Source of the DNA: Acidobacteriota bacterium
GTDB lineage: Bacteria; Acidobacteriota; Blastocatellia; Pyrinomonadales; Pyrinomonadaceae
Direction: 5' to 3'
Length of the DNA: 64,000 bases
Assembly: GCA_020199995.1 (NCBI GenBank)
Contig: JAIVJM010000002.1
Location: forward strand, 1 to 64,000
Shown: piece after piece, positions 4,631 to 20,401 of the stretch
How positions within the stretch are numbered: position 1 is the first letter of the stretch
How the letters are laid out: each line of letters starts with the position of its first letter
Position numbers and translations under genes: made by a program
Notes under the pieces: model-generated
Databases searched by the model: none
What the model was told of the DNA's origin: nothing
Seen by the model: the letters and a program-made list of their open reading frames with translations, nothing else

Positions 4631-7294
4631 ATGAGCCAGAGCGAATCCGTAGAGAAAGCGCAGCGCATCCTGCGCGGCCAGAGCGCCAATGACCCCGCCG
4701 AGATGCTGCAACTCGCCAAAGCGCTGATGAAGGAGAAGTCTTTCACCTACGCGCGCCGTATTCTGGGCCGCGCGCTGAGCGAGACGAGCATCAACGAAAG
4801 CCATAAGCTCAAGCGCCAAATTCACCAGAAGGCCGCGGTCTGCACTTACAAGGACATGGACCTCCCCGCCGACACGCGGCTCGACCGCGCGCTCGACCTC
4901 CTGCGCGCGACCGACGACCTCGCCACCACCACGGATCAGGAGACGCTCGGCATCGCCGGGGCCGTCTACAAACGCAAGTGGGAAGTAGACAGCCAGAAGC
5001 AGCAGCTCGAACGCTCGCTCTTCTATTACCTGCGCGGCTACGAGCAGGGCGCGCAGAAAGATCAGGGCTATACGGGAATCAACGCCGCCTTCGTCCTCGA
5101 CCTGCTCGCGCATCAGGAGGCCGAGGACGCGAAGAAGGCCGGCTTCGTCTCGCTCGTCTCCGACGAGCGGCGCGCGCGCGCGCGGCTCATCCGCGAAGAG
5201 ATCATCGAGAAGGTCGAGCCGCTGGCGCGACAGCCCGGCACCGAGTGGCTGGCCGGCGAGTGGTGGTTCTACAGTACCATCGCCGAGGCCTACTTCGGCC
5301 TCGGGCCGCACGACGAGGAGGAACACGAGCCCGGTCATGAGGGCTTCTACCGGAAGGCCGTCGAGTGGCTGCTGGAGGGGAAGAAGAAGACCTCGCCGCC
5401 GGAGTGGGAGTACGAGACGGCGGCGCGGCAGTTGGCCGCGCTGGCGCGCCTCCAGAGCCCGCCGGGCACGACTGAGGTCAATCTGGCCGACTCGCCTCCG
5501 TGGCGCGCGCTGAAGATATTCCTCGGCGACAGCACGGCTGCCGTCAACAGCGCCTTCGTCGGAAAGATCGGGCTCGGGCTCTCGGGCGGCGGCTTCCGCG
5601 CCTCGCTCTACCACATCGGCGTGCTGGCAAAACTCGCCGAGCTCGACGTGCTGCGCCGCGTCGAAGTCCTCTCGTGCGTCTCGGGCGGCTCGATCATCGG
5701 CGCGCACTACTACCTCGAAGTCCGCCGCCTCCTTCAGTCCAAAGAGGACAAGGACATCACGCGCGAGGACTACATCGAGATCGTCAAATGCCTTGAGGAG
5801 GACTTCCTCCGGGGCGTGCAGACCAACGTCCGCACGCGCGTCGCCGCCGAGTTCGTCACCAACGTGAAGATGATGTTCTCGCAAAAGTACTCGCGCACGA
5901 TGCGCGCGGGCGAGCTCTACGAGCGCGAGATTTTCTCGCGTGTTCAGGACGGCGAAGGCCACAAGGAGCGTTGGCTGAGCGACCTCATCATCAGGCCCGC
6001 AGGCGGGCCGGAGAATTTTTCGCCCCGGAACGGGAACTGGCAGCGCACGGCCAAGGTGCCCATCCTCATCCTCAACGCGGCGACGCTCAACACCGGGCAC
6101 TCGTGGCAGTTCACCGCCCAGTGGATGGGTGAGCCGCCCGCCGGCATCGACAGCAAGATAGACGGCAACGACCGCTACCGGCGCATGTACTACTGGGAGG
6201 CTCCAGAGGGCCACCGGAAGGTGCGCCTCGGCCACGCGGTCGCCGCCTCGGCCTGCGTGCCCGGACTCTTCGAGCCGATTGTCTTAGACGGCCTCTTCCC
6301 CGAGCGCACCGTCCGGCTCGTGGACGGCGGCGTGTGCGACAATCAGGGCGTCGGCGGCCTCGTCGAGCAGGACTGCAACGTCATCCTGATCAGCGACGGG
6401 AGCGGCCAGATGGGTTCGCAGAACGAGCCGAGCCGGGGACTGCTCGGCGTCCCCCTGCGCTCGATGGACATCGTGCAGGCGCGCGTGCGCGCCTCGCAGT
6501 ATCAGGACCTCAACGCGCGCAAGCGCTCGTCGCTCCTGCGCGGCTTCATGTTCGTCCACCTCAAGGGCGACCTCGACGTAGACCCGATTGACTGGGTTGA
6601 TTGCCAGGACCCCTTCGACGCTTCGGACGACGCGCGGCCCGTCTCGCGGCGCGGCCCGCTGACGGGCTACGGCATCGCCAAGAGCGTCCAGCAGCAACTG
6701 GCGGCGGTGCGCACTGACCTCGACTCCTTCTCCGATGTCGAAGCCTACACGCTGATGACGAGCGCTTATCGGATTACCGAGCAGGCGTTCCGGCTGAAGT
6801 GCGTCGAGGGATTCCCGGAGCCGAAGAGTCCGCTGGCATGGAAGTTCCTCGAAGTCGAGGACGCGATGAGGTATCCGGGCAAGCGTTACCGGCATGTGCA
6901 GAAGCTGCTCGGCGTGAGCGGCAGCAAGGCCTTCAAAATCTGGATGCTCTCGACGCCGCTCAAAATCCTCGCCGCCGTTTTGGCGCTCGCCGCCGCCGCC
7001 TTCATCGTCTACGCCTTCATTCGCTGGCGTCACGAGCCCATCGTCCAGACCATCACGCTCGGGGCCGTCGGCATCGCCGTCCTCACTTACCTCCTCACGC
7101 AGGTCATCACGATGGTCGTGGGGAAGAACGCGATGAAGGTCATCAAGCTGCGCCAGACGCTGATCCGCATCGCCGTCGGGATGGGGACGGCACTCCTCGG
7201 CTGGCTCGCCGCGCGCCTGCACCTGCACGTCTTCGACCGAATGTTTCTGAGCCGCGGGAGCCTCAAAAACTTCAAGAAGCAGGAAGAATCCTGA
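4631..7294 (+). CDS. Patatin-like phospholipase with N-terminal TRAFs-binding/DUF4071-like region and C-terminal TM helices
   Basis: 887 aa; GLGLSGGGFRASLYHIGVL (oxyanion loop), SCVSGGSIIGAHYY (nucleophile elbow), VDGGVCDNQG (catalytic Asp); N-terminus GYTGINAAFVLDLLA resembles DUF4071; about 3 hydrophobic segments after residue 770. Confidence 0.85.
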   Translation: MSQSESVEKAQRILRGQSANDPAEMLQLAKALMKEKSFTYARRILGRALSETSINESHKLKRQIHQKAAVCTYKDMDLPADTRLDRALDLLRATDDLATTTDQETLGIAGAVYKRKWEVDSQKQQLERSLFYYLRGYEQGAQKDQGYTGINAAFVLDLLAHQEAEDAKKAGFVSLVSDERRARARLIREEIIEKVEPLARQPGTEWLAGEWWFYSTIAEAYFGLGPHDEEEHEPGHEGFYRKAVEWLLEGKKKTSPPEWEYETAARQLAALARLQSPPGTTEVNLADSPPWRALKIFLGDSTAAVNSAFVGKIGLGLSGGGFRASLYHIGVLAKLAELDVLRRVEVLSCVSGGSIIGAHYYLEVRRLLQSKEDKDITREDYIEIVKCLEEDFLRGVQTNVRTRVAAEFVTNVKMMFSQKYSRTMRAGELYEREIFSRVQDGEGHKERWLSDLIIRPAGGPENFSPRNGNWQRTAKVPILILNAATLNTGHSWQFTAQWMGEPPAGIDSKIDGNDRYRRMYYWEAPEGHRKVRLGHAVAASACVPGLFEPIVLDGLFPERTVRLVDGGVCDNQGVGGLVEQDCNVILISDGSGQMGSQNEPSRGLLGVPLRSMDIVQARVRASQYQDLNARKRSSLLRGFMFVHLKGDLDVDPIDWVDCQDPFDASDDARPVSRRGPLTGYGIAKSVQQQLAAVRTDLDSFSDVEAYTLMTSAYRITEQAFRLKCVEGFPEPKSPLAWKFLEVEDAMRYPGKRYRHVQKLLGVSGSKAFKIWMLSTPLKILAAVLALAAAAFIVYAFIRWRHEPIVQTITLGAVGIAVLTYLLTQVITMVVGKNAMKVIKLRQTLIRIAVGMGTALLGWLAARLHLHVFDRMFLSRGSLKNFKKQEES

Positions 7295-10294: not shown

Positions 10295-10900
10295 TCATCC
10301 GCCGCGCATGGCCCGACGCCAGACGGCGGCCTCGCCTTCGCGCCGGATAAGCGCGACGACCTCGGAGAGGGCCGCGGCGTAGAGAGCGCGCGTCTCGTGC
10401 GACGTGGCCGCGAGCGCGAGCCCGCGCTCGATCTCTTCGACGGAGAGCCTGTGCTTCCCCGCCGAGCGCGCGAGCATGGCCCCTTCACCGGCGACGTGCG
10501 CGGCCAGACCTTCGAGGAGCCAGAGCGGCGCGCGCCCCCGGCCCAGTGTCTCAAGCGCGACGTGGACGAACTCGTGGCGCAGCGTCGAGGAGAGCACCCC
10601 GCGACGGCGCAGAACTCCGGTCGGCTGCGACTCGATGCGCCGCCCAACGGTCGAGGCGGCGACCCACGCGGGCTGCCCCGTCGAGGCCGTAAAATCGCCC
10701 GTCGTCTCGTGGACGTATAACTCGGTCGTTCCCAGCCCCGCAGTGTTGACGCCCGCGCCCTCCAGTCGCCCCAGCACGTCGCGGCGCGCGCCCTCCAGCG
10801 CGCTCAGCATCGCCTCGACCTCGCGGCGCGCGACGCGCGACGGATAGCTCACGCGGAAGTGCTCGCCCGCAAGCGTCAGGCGCGGCGCGCGTCCGCGTGC
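10295..10900 (-). CDS. Gluzincin-like (peptidase MA-like) metallopeptidase; possibly the frameshifted C-terminus of the upstream SpoIID protein
   Basis: RLTLAGEHFRVSYPSRVARREVEAML...LRHEFVHVALETLGRGRAPLWLLEGLAAHVAGEG (HExxH-like HEFVH plus downstream EGLA). Start uncertain. Confidence 0.65.
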   Translation of the reverse strand, partial: ARGRAPRLTLAGEHFRVSYPSRVARREVEAMLSALEGARRDVLGRLEGAGVNTAGLGTTELYVHETTGDFTASTGQPAWVAASTVGRRIESQPTGVLRRRGVLSSTLRHEFVHVALETLGRGRAPLWLLEGLAAHVAGEGAMLARSAGKHRLSVEEIERGLALAATSHETRALYAAALSEVVALIRREGEAAVWRRAMRGG

Positions 10901-13056
10901 TCAAGTCGGTCAATTCTCTGCTCCTGTCCTCCCACCACCACTCCGGGGAAGAACTGGCCGACGATCTGCTGGTACGAAGCGCCGCGCCGCGCGAGGACGT
11001 GCGCGCCCGACTGGCAGAGGCCGAGGCCGTGGCCGAAGCCGCTGCCGCGGAAGACGAAATTACCGCCGACGCGCGCGACCTCGAAGCGCGAGCTTTTGAG
11101 GACGTTCCAGCCGAGCGTGCGCCCGACGATGATCTTGAAGTCCCAGCCCCGGACGATGCGTCGGCGCTCGCCTTCGAGCGCGACCTGCTCGGCGCGGCCC
11201 GTCGCGTCGCGCCGCACGACGCGCACGTCACCGAGTTGCGCGCCCACGTCGCTGCGCCGGTCGGCGCGCACGGCCCTCAACAGCTCCGACGCCCGAATCA
11301 CATCCCGCCATGCGCTGTAGGCAGTCCCCGCGCAGAAGTCGTCGCGCACGCCGCGCAGGTGCGCGGGAACCGAGGCCGCGCCCCAGAGCGTCCTCATGTT
11401 CGCCGTCGCGCCGCCGCACGACGCGCTGAAGTAACTCTCCGCCAGCCGCCCCTCGCGGTCGCGCAGGACTTCGCCCGACGTCTCGCTGACGGCGCGTCGG
11501 AGTAGCTCATAGAAATCGGGGCGCGCGCTCCCGTCGCCGACGCTCAGGTATCTCTGGCAGTGCGTGCTGGCGCAGAAGTCGAAACCTTCGCGCGTGTGGC
11601 GGCGCAGATTTTTGAGCGCGTAGGTGCGGCTCACGACCGCCTGCGCTTTCAAAGCTTCCGGCTCCGTCTCGGTGCTCGCTTCAGCCGCCAGCACGCCGAA
11701 GACGTACTCGTCGAGCGGCAGCGCGAGCGTACGGTCGGCGCGAGAGAGGTGGACGCGTACGACGCGCGCCGCGCCCGCCGCGACGCCCGCCTGAGCGTCC
11801 CGCTCCGCTTCCGACGCGCTCGCACCCGCGCCGCTTGTCGCGCCCGCGTCGTCCGTCGCACCCGCGCCGCCCGTCTGCTTCAAAGACTCGACGGCGGCGC
11901 GCCGCGACTCCTCGATGCGCGCGTGCGTTTGAAAGATTAGGCGCGCGAGTTCGGCGGCCTCCACGCCGTGCCCTCGCTTGAGGAGGACGAGGACGGCGAG
12001 TCCGACCGACTCCGGCGTCACGCCGCGCTCCGCGTCCCCCCCGGCGTCGAGGCCGACGAACCACCCCTGCGTGCGGAAGTCGCCGGGCGGCGTCGAAGTG
12101 CCGGTCTTGCCGAAGACATAGGCGGGCAGCGTGTTGAGGTCGGCGCGCGCCGCCGTCCCGTAGGCGACCGCGCCGCGCATCCCTTCGACGAGCAGCGCGC
12201 GTTGCTCCGGCTCGATTTCGACGCGGGCGCGCTCGCGAGGGCTGAAGCCTGCGGACGGCGCGCGGCGCGGCGCGTAGAGATGACCGCCGTTAAAGAGCGC
12301 CGCGTAGGCCGCGACGAGCTGCGCGGGGGTGACGAGCAGTTGCTCGCTCTCGCCGAGCGCGTCCGCCACACGCCAGCGGTCGCGCGCGGGCAGACGCCCC
12401 GCGGCCTCCCGCTCGGCGACGCCTCCCGTGCGCACGCCGAAGCCGAACGAGGCGAGCGTGCGCGTGAAAGACTCGGCGTCCAGACGCTCGCCCGCGTGCC
12501 CGAAAAAGTAGTTGCACGAGTAGGCCAAAGCCTGCGTGGGGCCGAAGGCGGTCTTGGAAGGCGCGTGCGCGCAGGTAATCTTGAAGTCTTCGTGTTTGAA
12601 GGATTGATGACAGAACGTGCGCGACTCCGCGCCGAGGACTCCCGCGCGCAGGGCGGCGAGCATCGTGAAGGGCTTGATGGTCGAGCCCGGCGCGAAGCTC
12701 TCTTCGTAAGCGAGCCGCGGGTTGACGACCGCGCGCACGCGCCCCGTCCGCGCGTCCAGCACGAGGATCGTCCCCTCGCGCGCGCCGAGCGCCGAGAGGG
12801 CCGCGCGCCTCAACGTCTCGTCGGCCTCGTCTTCGCCCGGCGCGGCGACGGCGGCGGCCATGCCCTTCGACGACGGTGCTTCTTCACGCGCGCCCGGCAG
12901 CGCCCACGCAAACAGCAGCGTCGCGCACAGGCAGGCGTGCGCGAGCCCGTGCGGCGCGCGCGCGGGTCGAAGGCCCGACGCCGACGCCATCAGGCGCGCG
13001 AGCGAGCGCCGCGCGGCCAGCGCCGACCATTCAATTTTCCGGCGCTGGTTCATCAA
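10876..13056 (-). CDS. Penicillin-binding transpeptidase domain fused to SpoIID/LytB-type domain
   Basis: 726 aa; APGSTIKPFTML (SxxK), YSCNYF (SxN), VFGKTGTST (KTG) followed by RTLALPLDEYVFGVLAAEASTETEPEALKAQAVVSRTYAL...FSASCGGATAN...GSGFGHGLGLCQSGAHVLARRGASYQQI. Confidence 0.9.
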   Translation of the reverse strand: MMNQRRKIEWSALAARRSLARLMASASGLRPARAPHGLAHACLCATLLFAWALPGAREEAPSSKGMAAAVAAPGEDEADETLRRAALSALGAREGTILVLDARTGRVRAVVNPRLAYEESFAPGSTIKPFTMLAALRAGVLGAESRTFCHQSFKHEDFKITCAHAPSKTAFGPTQALAYSCNYFFGHAGERLDAESFTRTLASFGFGVRTGGVAEREAAGRLPARDRWRVADALGESEQLLVTPAQLVAAYAALFNGGHLYAPRRAPSAGFSPRERARVEIEPEQRALLVEGMRGAVAYGTAARADLNTLPAYVFGKTGTSTPPGDFRTQGWFVGLDAGGDAERGVTPESVGLAVLVLLKRGHGVEAAELARLIFQTHARIEESRRAAVESLKQTGGAGATDDAGATSGAGASASEAERDAQAGVAAGAARVVRVHLSRADRTLALPLDEYVFGVLAAEASTETEPEALKAQAVVSRTYALKNLRRHTREGFDFCASTHCQRYLSVGDGSARPDFYELLRRAVSETSGEVLRDREGRLAESYFSASCGGATANMRTLWGAASVPAHLRGVRDDFCAGTAYSAWRDVIRASELLRAVRADRRSDVGAQLGDVRVVRRDATGRAEQVALEGERRRIVRGWDFKIIVGRTLGWNVLKSSRFEVARVGGNFVFRGSGFGHGLGLCQSGAHVLARRGASYQQIVGQFFPGVVVGGQEQRIDRLEHADARRA

Positions 13057-13865
13057 TGATCTTCACGTCCGAGACGAAGCGCCGGTAGTCCGCGAAGGTG
13101 CGCTTGAAGCGGACGCGCGGCTCTCGCGCGCCCCGGATGACCCTCAGAGATTCGTAGTATTCCGGCAGGAGCAACTCCTGTTCCGGGTCTTTGAACGGCA
13201 CGCGCCGGAAGCTCATCGTGTGCTCGGCGCGGTCGAGCCTGAGCTTGCGCTTCGGGCCGAAGCGCGCGAAACCGGCGCTGAACAGGCGCGGCGACTCGAA
13301 TGCGTAAGGCTCGACGAGCCGCGAGGCGGTCTGGAGCACGTCGAAGTTTTCGGCGTCCACCCAGAGCGTCCCCTTGTAGACGCCCCACGCCTTCGTAGGC
13401 GAAGACGAGGCGCGCTCGATACTTCGGCAGGAGGAAGGTGAGCGGGTCGGCGTAGCTCGATCCGGGCGCGCCGCACTTGTCCAGCTCTTCCTTCTGCTTC
13501 GAGGGCTTGACGACCTTCCCGTTAATCGACCTGAGCCGCCTGATTGCCTTGCCGTAGAAATCCTGCTCGTCCTTCGAGCGCTGCTCGCGCAGCACAACGT
13601 TATGGAAAACGTACTCCTTCGACTTGTCCTTCGCCGTCAGGTCGTCATTCACCTCTTCGGCCCGGAGCACCTCTGTGAAGGCGATGCTGAACATCCCGCC
13701 GAGGTATCGCTCCACGCTCTCGCCGACGCGCGCGAGGATGAAGTCGAGCCGCGCGCCATCCCCCTCCGGCTGCCGCTCCGGGCCCGCCGTCTGCGCAGAC
13801 GCTTCGACGCAAAGCAGCCCCGCGAGCAGAAACGTCGCGAGCAATTCCCGGTTAATACTTCTCAT
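13031..13865 (-). pseudogene. Secreted protein of unknown family (outer-membrane lipoprotein-carrier-like?), frameshifted
   Basis: Signal peptide MRSINRELLATFLLAGLLCVEASAQ...YRARLVFAYEG then frame change to AWGVYKGTLWVDAENFDVLQTASRLVEPYAFESPRLF...; shift near 13385. Confidence 0.7.
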
Positions 13866-13907
13866 CGCGCCTCTTTCTTTTTTCGCGCGCCAACGGCCCG
13901 CATCCAT

Positions 13908-14513
13908 TTACGCTTGCTGCGGCACCTCCTCGACGGCGGCGCTCTCATTCACGGCGACCGGCTCCGTCGTGACGCGCGCCAGCGCGCCGAGCGTGACGGC
14001 CCAGCCCCAGAGCGTGAAGACGAAGGCGAGCGCGAGTCGGAGGCCGAACAGCAGCACCTCGGCCCACGCGCCCTTGACCGGCGTGCGCGTGAAGAGGACG
14101 AAGTACGGCATGAGGCCGAAGACGAAGAAGCCCACGGCGTAGACGAGCACGGAGGCCGGCGCGAAGGCGCGGGCCGCGACGCGGTGCGCGCCCCTGAGCG
14201 TCGCCTTGAGGCCGTCGCGCGCCACCGCGAGCCACAGCCCCACCGCGACGAGCGGAAGCACGAAGCCGAGCAGCGTCAGCCACAGGGACGAGAGCGCGAG
14301 CGCGGCCTGCAGGAAAAAGAACAGGAGCGGCGCGAGGAGGACGGCCAGCGCCGAGAGCGCGAGCTGCCACACGCTTGCCACCCCCGTCTTGAAGAAGACG
14401 TAGAGCGCCGCGAGCAGCGCCGCGTAGAGCACGTTGAGGACGAAGAGAGCGCGCCAGTTGCGCAGCAGCCCGCGCGCGGAGCCGCCGAGGGCGTTGAATG
14501 CGTTTTTAATCAT
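13908..14513 (-). CDS. Multi-pass membrane protein of unknown function
   Basis: 201 aa, several hydrophobic helices; between A2M and secreted-protein genes in same orientation. Confidence 0.75.
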   Translation of the reverse strand: MIKNAFNALGGSARGLLRNWRALFVLNVLYAALLAALYVFFKTGVASVWQLALSALAVLLAPLLFFFLQAALALSSLWLTLLGFVLPLVAVGLWLAVARDGLKATLRGAHRVAARAFAPASVLVYAVGFFVFGLMPYFVLFTRTPVKGAWAEVLLFGLRLALAFVFTLWGWAVTLGALARVTTEPVAVNESAAVEEVPQQA

Positions 14514-14519
14514 GCTCGT

Positions 14520-19451
<4,932 letters not shown>

Positions 19452-19579: not shown

Positions 19580-19581
<2 letters not shown>
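19466..19581. repeat. Inverted array of GTCTGGA/GTCTGAA heptamers, hairpin-forming, adjoining DUF1175 stop
   Basis: gagtctggagtctgaagtctgaagtctggagtctggag ... ctccggactccagacttcgaactccagacttt. Confidence 0.8.

Positions 19582-20401
<820 letters not shown>

Follow-up and report, generated by a model that had tools for sequence, protein, structure and literature searches.

A penicillin-binding transpeptidase–SpoIID fusion with intact active-site residues in a YfaQ/MagE-type macroglobulin operon of Acidobacteriota

The stretch of DNA analysed here (the window, 64,000 nucleotides from a soil-type acidobacterium of the family Pyrinomonadaceae) encodes a single protein in which a penicillin-binding transpeptidase domain is followed by a complete SpoIID domain, and the active-site residues of both are intact. 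The ancestral chain has three domains, the third carrying an HExxH motif. The gene stands in one operon with a thioester alpha-2-macroglobulin (A2M) and a DUF1175 lipoprotein, a cluster that is the yfaT-yfaS-yfaQ or magC-D-E arrangement, and the protein is homologous to Escherichia coli YfaQ over its full length. We consider it somewhat better than an even bet that this is a catalytically intact, acidobacterial three-domain enzyme of the YfaQ/MagE type, working in envelope repair or defence together with the macroglobulin.

Domains and active sites of the fusion protein

The initial annotation had read from the letters alone one uninterrupted 726-aa ORF with STIK, SCN and KTGT motifs, a complete SpoIID-like region behind them, and no N-terminal dimerisation domain of penicillin-binding proteins (PBPs). 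All of this was borne out on the minus strand (Table 1), where translation may start from TTG at 13056 or ATG at 13053. Pfam PF00905 matched residues 95–336 (E 7.4e-36, 124.3 bits against a cut-off of 22.1), PF08486 matched residues 445–531 (E 7.5e-23, 81.4 against 23 bits), and NCBIfam TIGR02669 matched residues 446–708 (E 4.5e-47, 161 against 83.3 bits). Both folds were thus above their cut-offs, and these E-values rule out chance motif matches. Among solved structures, the first half matched PBP transpeptidase domains (E 2.5e-10), and the SpoIID half matched the SpoIID proteins of Bacillus anthracis (E 1e-20) and Clostridioides difficile (E 1e-16). Pfam revealed no class B pedestal or dimerisation domain ahead of PF00905, where there is only a hydrophobic segment.

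Table 1. Features of the fusion gene and its operon in the window
Feature	Coordinates	Strand	Basis or remark
Third domain, encoded by an ORF of its own whose frame differs from that of P0001	10295..10852	-	fused in-frame in most relatives
WLLEGLA with third ligand-type Glu	10502..10522	-	sequence
HEFVH zinc-site motif (predicted)	10562..10576	-	sequence
Transpeptidase–SpoIID protein ORF (P0001)	10876..13056	-	726 aa
SpoIID/LytB domain TIGR02669, residues 446–708	10933..11721	-	NCBIfam and solved-structure matches
SpoIID signature GFGHGLGLCQ, residues 673–682	11011..11040	-	sequence
HTREGFDFCASTHC, H/C/H/C of SpoIID domain	11557..11598	-	all four invariant 28/28
SpoIID motif AAEAS with catalytic-type Glu459	11674..11688	-	aligned with C. 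difficile SpoIID
Penicillin-binding transpeptidase domain PF00905	12049..12774	-	Pfam
KTGT motif, residues 317–320	12097..12108	-	KTG invariant 28/28
SxN motif SCN, residues 180–182	12511..12519	-	invariant 28/28
SxxK motif STIK, residues 125–128	12673..12684	-	S and K invariant 28/28
N-terminal hydrophobic signal/anchor segment, residues 34–55	12892..12957	-	from sequence; signal role predicted
Secreted protein, frame-broken near 13350, present in few relatives	13031..13907	-	upstream of P0001
Multi-pass membrane protein, 201 aa (~290 aa in relatives)	13908..14513	-	operon member
Alpha-2-macroglobulin, 1643 aa, N-terminal membrane anchor	14520..19451	-	Pfam
Thioester motif CTEQ of alpha-2-macroglobulin	15930..15941	-	sequence
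DUF1175 (YfaT-like) NlpC/P60-type lipoprotein	19580..20401	-	Asp95-Cys96 and His205 invariant 59/59

Both folds were also recovered when a complete relative of 848 aa was modelled with AlphaFold (mean pLDDT 86, pTM 0.46). Foldseek matched this model to SpoVD and PBP3 for the transpeptidase (E 2e-17) and to SpoIID 5i1t for the second domain (E 3e-16, target TM 0.81). Since the linkers at residues 330–341 and 631–651 are of low confidence and apparently disordered, and the pTM is 0.46, the arrangement of the domains relative to each other is not fixed. The window genome encodes six further transpeptidase domains and three further macroglobulins, indicating that the fusion protein is not the housekeeping PBP.

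Residue conservation was assessed in an alignment of 28 homologues with 31–59% identity to the first sequence. Besides the transpeptidase motifs, Glu459 was invariant in all 28, as were His487, Cys495, His499 and Cys500, the putative zinc ligands. The last four are of the same kind and in the same order as the zinc ligands H134, C140, H145 and C146 of C. difficile SpoIID, in which E101 is catalytic (PMC6221140). The window protein therefore resembles the SpoIID structures of B. anthracis (4RWR) and C. difficile (5I1T) in its full domain, catalytic-type Glu, GFGHG motif and predicted clostridial-type Cys/His zinc site, and differs from them in being fused to transpeptidase and gluzincin-like domains and encoded in a non-sporulation operon.

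Some 40 further Blastocatellia genomes carry the fusion, and it is also found in acidobacterial classes other than this one. Every one of the 79 genomes searched had a matching PBP or SpoIID of some kind, whereas the fusion itself (E below 1e-50) was present in 33, the window's own included. About one half of the family to which the window belongs has it, and it also occurs in several other families of that class. A contig scan revealed 41 close relatives of nearly full length. All came from Acidobacteriota, under the record names Pyrinomonadaceae, Blastocatellia, Chloracidobacterium sp. or Acidobacteria. The scan also gave two divergent relatives with 31–32% identity, and several of its loci belong to genomes already in the set of 79. 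Other phyla gave SpoIID-only matches in this genome-wide scan, which used two peptide patterns and is biased to close relatives. Plasmid searches yielded copies of YfaQ in Escherichia and Citrobacter, and no complete fusion outside acidobacteria. Because the fusion recurs at 44–63% identity in many independently assembled genomes, an assembly join at the PBP–SpoIID boundary was ruled out.

The two-domain description stood as far as both folds lie in one chain, but it had overlooked a third, gluzincin-like domain and the four-gene macroglobulin operon. In 37 of the 41 related loci, the reading frame stays open beyond SpoIID; a variable linker leads to a further domain, which has HExxH followed by a glutamate in WLxEG(L). 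Across 39 copies of this domain H93, E94 and E114 were invariant and H97 nearly so, and HExxH...E was kept in all 27 homologues of the 28-sequence alignment that contain it. For this domain the AlphaFold model had a mean pLDDT of 94.7 and a pTM of 0.90. Collagenase units, which are MA-clan zinc proteases, were its best Foldseek matches (query TM 0.60, weak E of 0.4–0.5), and Peptidase_MA_2 (PF13485) scored below threshold at 20 against 32 bits. On these grounds we describe the domain as gluzincin-like (Peptidase MA-like) and a putative, unproven peptidase.

The connection between the three domains varies. L056 and L078 encode the third domain in a gene apart, which has a signal or anchor sequence of its own; in L056 this gene follows an in-frame stop. 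A different family of the same phylum (L154 13811–16377 and L155 4127–6762) has a transpeptidase gene that overlaps a downstream SpoIID–HExxH gene, which supports a functional association of the fused parts. At L161 4426–6156 and L163 14321–16096, also outside the window's family, HExxH is N-terminal to a SpoIID-like domain, and the gene sits near A2M and DUF1175, so that the same parts occur in another order. These split and reordered arrangements indicate that the parts remain together while the fusion varies.

The macroglobulin operon and its relation to YfaQ and MagE

On one strand, the genes follow in the order DUF1175, thioester A2M, multi-pass membrane protein and three-domain enzyme, and this order is kept in nearly all of 20 relative loci inspected. 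The DUF1175 protein resembles NlpC/P60 and starts with a lipobox-like sequence. The intermediate membrane protein has no Pfam match, yet is conserved (for example at L058 6402–7286). Every complete macroglobulin ORF inspected at the relative loci has C[TV]EQ. Among the 79 genomes, 29 had both DUF1175 and the fusion, 4 the fusion alone, 3 DUF1175 alone and 43 neither, a co-occurrence with a Fisher p of 5e-14 when genomes are counted as independent despite their kinship. Of the four fusion-alone genomes, three have fragmented assemblies. The distribution of the module is patchy, which fits an accessory system. Three further macroglobulin genes of the window genome lie outside the operon, on contigs C17, C251 and C286.

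The initial annotation had also suggested that YfaQ/DUF2300 proteins may be degenerate relatives. Their full-length collinear homology and the decayed motifs of YfaQ agree with this; the DUF2300 model itself does not reach the acidobacterial protein. With a broad family alignment, hhalign matched YfaQ over its whole length (525 columns, E 4e-9, probability 96%), pairing SLWK with STIK, SCG with SCN, KTW with KTG, the SpoIID glutamate with its counterpart and HEYLH with HExxH. A narrower alignment gave 42 columns and a probability of 65%, and BLASTP between YfaQ and the window protein was weak (E 0.001–0.05). PF10062 (DUF2300) had no match in the window protein or its genome and none above cut-off in 199 acidobacterial genomes; it fits E. 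coli YfaQ, not the acidobacterial protein. A single weak PF10062 match at L132 was rejected as an unrelated TPR/sulfatase-like ORF.

Like the window family, E. coli YfaQ has the domain order transpeptidase-like, SpoIID-like and C-terminal HExxH, and DUF1175 and A2M genes adjoin it. The DUF1175, macroglobulin and DUF2300 genes of the E. coli yfaA-yfaT-yfaS-yfaQ-yfaP operon are in the same order as in the window, as they also are on a Citrobacter plasmid. No equivalents of YfaA and YfaP turned up at the locus in the window. The two differ in their motifs: E. coli and Citrobacter YfaQ kept SxxK and HExxH and lost SxN (SCG instead of SCN in E. coli), KTG and GFGHG, whereas these last three are present in the acidobacterial protein.

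CxEQ is absent from the YfaS-type macroglobulins of E. coli and Citrobacter, whereas YfhM has CLEQ and the window macroglobulin CTEQ. Tested as type II (mag-type), a class marked by the absence of CxEQ, the window macroglobulin was found to have the motif. Its BLAST scores against YfaS and YfhM (122 and 119 bits) are not decisive, and for this reason only synteny was used to relate it to either.

The magABCDEF operon of Pseudomonas aeruginosa likewise contains a bacterial macroglobulin, MagD, for which an envelope-defence function has been shown; MagE was compared by its published description only. MagD is of type II and has no CxEQ, in contrast to the window macroglobulin. Macroglobulins with a thioester were reported to be encoded together with PBP1C, and those lacking it to belong to the six-gene operon (PMC5764988). 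The acidobacterial operon, which combines a thioester macroglobulin with the mag-type gene set, breaks this rule. It shares with E. coli yfhM-pbpC (type I A2M and PBP1C) a thioester macroglobulin gene adjoining a penicillin-binding protein gene, and the proposed logic, protease trapping with wall repair, is the same. However, PbpC is a class A glycosyltransferase–transpeptidase, whereas the window partner has a lytic SpoIID domain and no glycosyltransferase, and only the window system comes with DUF1175.

Proposed role and alternatives

From the domains and the gene neighbourhood we infer enzymatic activity, an order of action, the macroglobulin as protease substrate and a role in repair or defence. 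The enzyme would be exported and stay in the periplasm or at the inner membrane. In its complete form, flexible linkers would connect a D,D-transpeptidase with a lytic transglycosylase of the SpoIID type and a gluzincin-like metallopeptidase. It would act at sites of wall damage such as competitors' peptidoglycan-attacking enzymes may cause. Hydrolases (amidase or endopeptidase), possibly the operon's own NlpC/P60-like DUF1175 lipoprotein, would first strip the peptides; the SpoIID domain would then trim the denuded glycan, and the transpeptidase would re-cross-link neighbouring strands. The metallopeptidase would cut a protein, most plausibly the partner macroglobulin, and so set or clear its protease trap.

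The initial annotation had proposed that one chain would couple cross-linking to glycan cutting. SpoIID requires denuded glycan (PMC6934232), which argues against a simple, direct coupling on one strand, as the SpoIID and transpeptidase domains would have no directly common substrate. Part of the function may even be non-catalytic, given that E. coli keeps the gene despite its decayed transpeptidase and SpoIID motifs. Two further points count against the favoured explanation. In P. aeruginosa, MagE was reported to be cytoplasmic and without stable MagD binding (PMC5764988). The window copy has its third domain in a different frame, and the reading of that domain as a metallopeptidase draws on HExxH...E, weak fold matches and Pfam scores below threshold.

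If the protein were a pseudo-enzyme or scaffold, its transpeptidase and SpoIID folds would mainly bind peptidoglycan and place the macroglobulin and the metallopeptidase at the wall with little or no catalysis. The loss of SxN, KTG and GFGHG from E. coli and Citrobacter YfaQ while the operon persists indicates that a non-catalytic function of the transpeptidase and SpoIID domains exists in the family. However, the catalytic residues of every domain are invariant in Blastocatellia homologues down to 31% identity, which would be unexpected were catalysis dispensable there, and we consider a scaffold unlikely.

A maturation factor for the macroglobulin, in which the HExxH domain would be the essential activity that processes A2M and the wall domains would only localise it, appears improbable to us. 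Deletion of magE alters the processing and forms of MagD in P. aeruginosa (PMC5764988), HExxH is the best-preserved motif in YfaQ, and the linkage with A2M is strict, all of which would fit such a factor. But it leaves the retention of SxxK, SCN, KTG and the SpoIID Glu in acidobacteria unexplained, and in L056 and L078 the HExxH domain has a gene to itself. A stand-alone serine domain without a pedestal, of a size near that of class D beta-lactamases and with a weak OXA-model match, might suggest a beta-lactam-responsive or defence protein, in which this domain would serve as a beta-lactam sink or sensor instead of a wall synthase. We regard this as very improbable, as class B PBPs are the best matches by sequence and fold, the OXA match (21 bits) is far under its cut-off, and the gene is linked to SpoIID and a macroglobulin, not to resistance regulators.

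The mag/yfa operons protect P. aeruginosa and affect cell width in E. coli, and the three-domain repair or defence enzyme that we favour bears on how they may do so. The bipartite plan of YfaQ is already known: it was described in 2025 as transpeptidase-like and SpoIID-like, and yfaQ deletion led to wider cells and showed links to peptidoglycan genes (PMC12282094). MagD protects P. aeruginosa against peptidoglycan-targeting T6SS effectors (PMC12663445). In the open-access literature we found no description of intact active sites in a YfaQ-type family, of the HExxH domain of YfaQ-type proteins, or of a mag-type operon whose macroglobulin has a thioester. A form with all sites intact turns the annotations 'transpeptidase-like' and 'SpoIID-like' into three testable activities, and a protease domain in YfaQ/MagE could account for the MagD processing disturbed by magE deletion. 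More tentatively, and with the doubt on the larger side, Acidobacteria might have kept the ancestral, fully catalytic YfaQ/MagE, which would cut glycan, re-cross-link peptides and cleave protein in one chain alongside a thioester macroglobulin and an NlpC/P60 lipoprotein, its HExxH domain processing the macroglobulin. If true, this would explain how mag operons confer resistance to T6SS effectors that target peptidoglycan.

Frame breaks and neighbouring genes in the window

The transpeptidase–SpoIID part of the window copy has no interruption, and the frames of this part and of the third domain are both open between 10878 and 10903. The window genome assembly consists of 352 contigs and is 88% complete. 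The split of the third domain probably reflects an assembly deletion or frameshift, or regional decay. A natural fission, of which L056 and L078 would be examples elsewhere, is less likely here, because the window ORF has no signal peptide, unlike those two, and because comparable breaks occur in the genes around it.

Between 7300 and 14500, five or six genes are each short by roughly 28–90 codons compared with relatives, and most have changed frame. The shortened genes encode an M28 peptidase (~7920), UvdE (~8880), CtaA/COX15 (~9800), the three-domain protein (~10900), the product of the gene at 13.0–13.9 kb (~13350) and the membrane protein (~14290), while the macroglobulin and patatin genes of the window are intact. 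The latter, at 4631–7294 on the plus strand, encodes an 887-aa protein that joins a TPR-S domain to a patatin-like phospholipase. In genome G024 the same TPR-S–patatin gene, 73% identical, adjoins that genome's copy of the operon.
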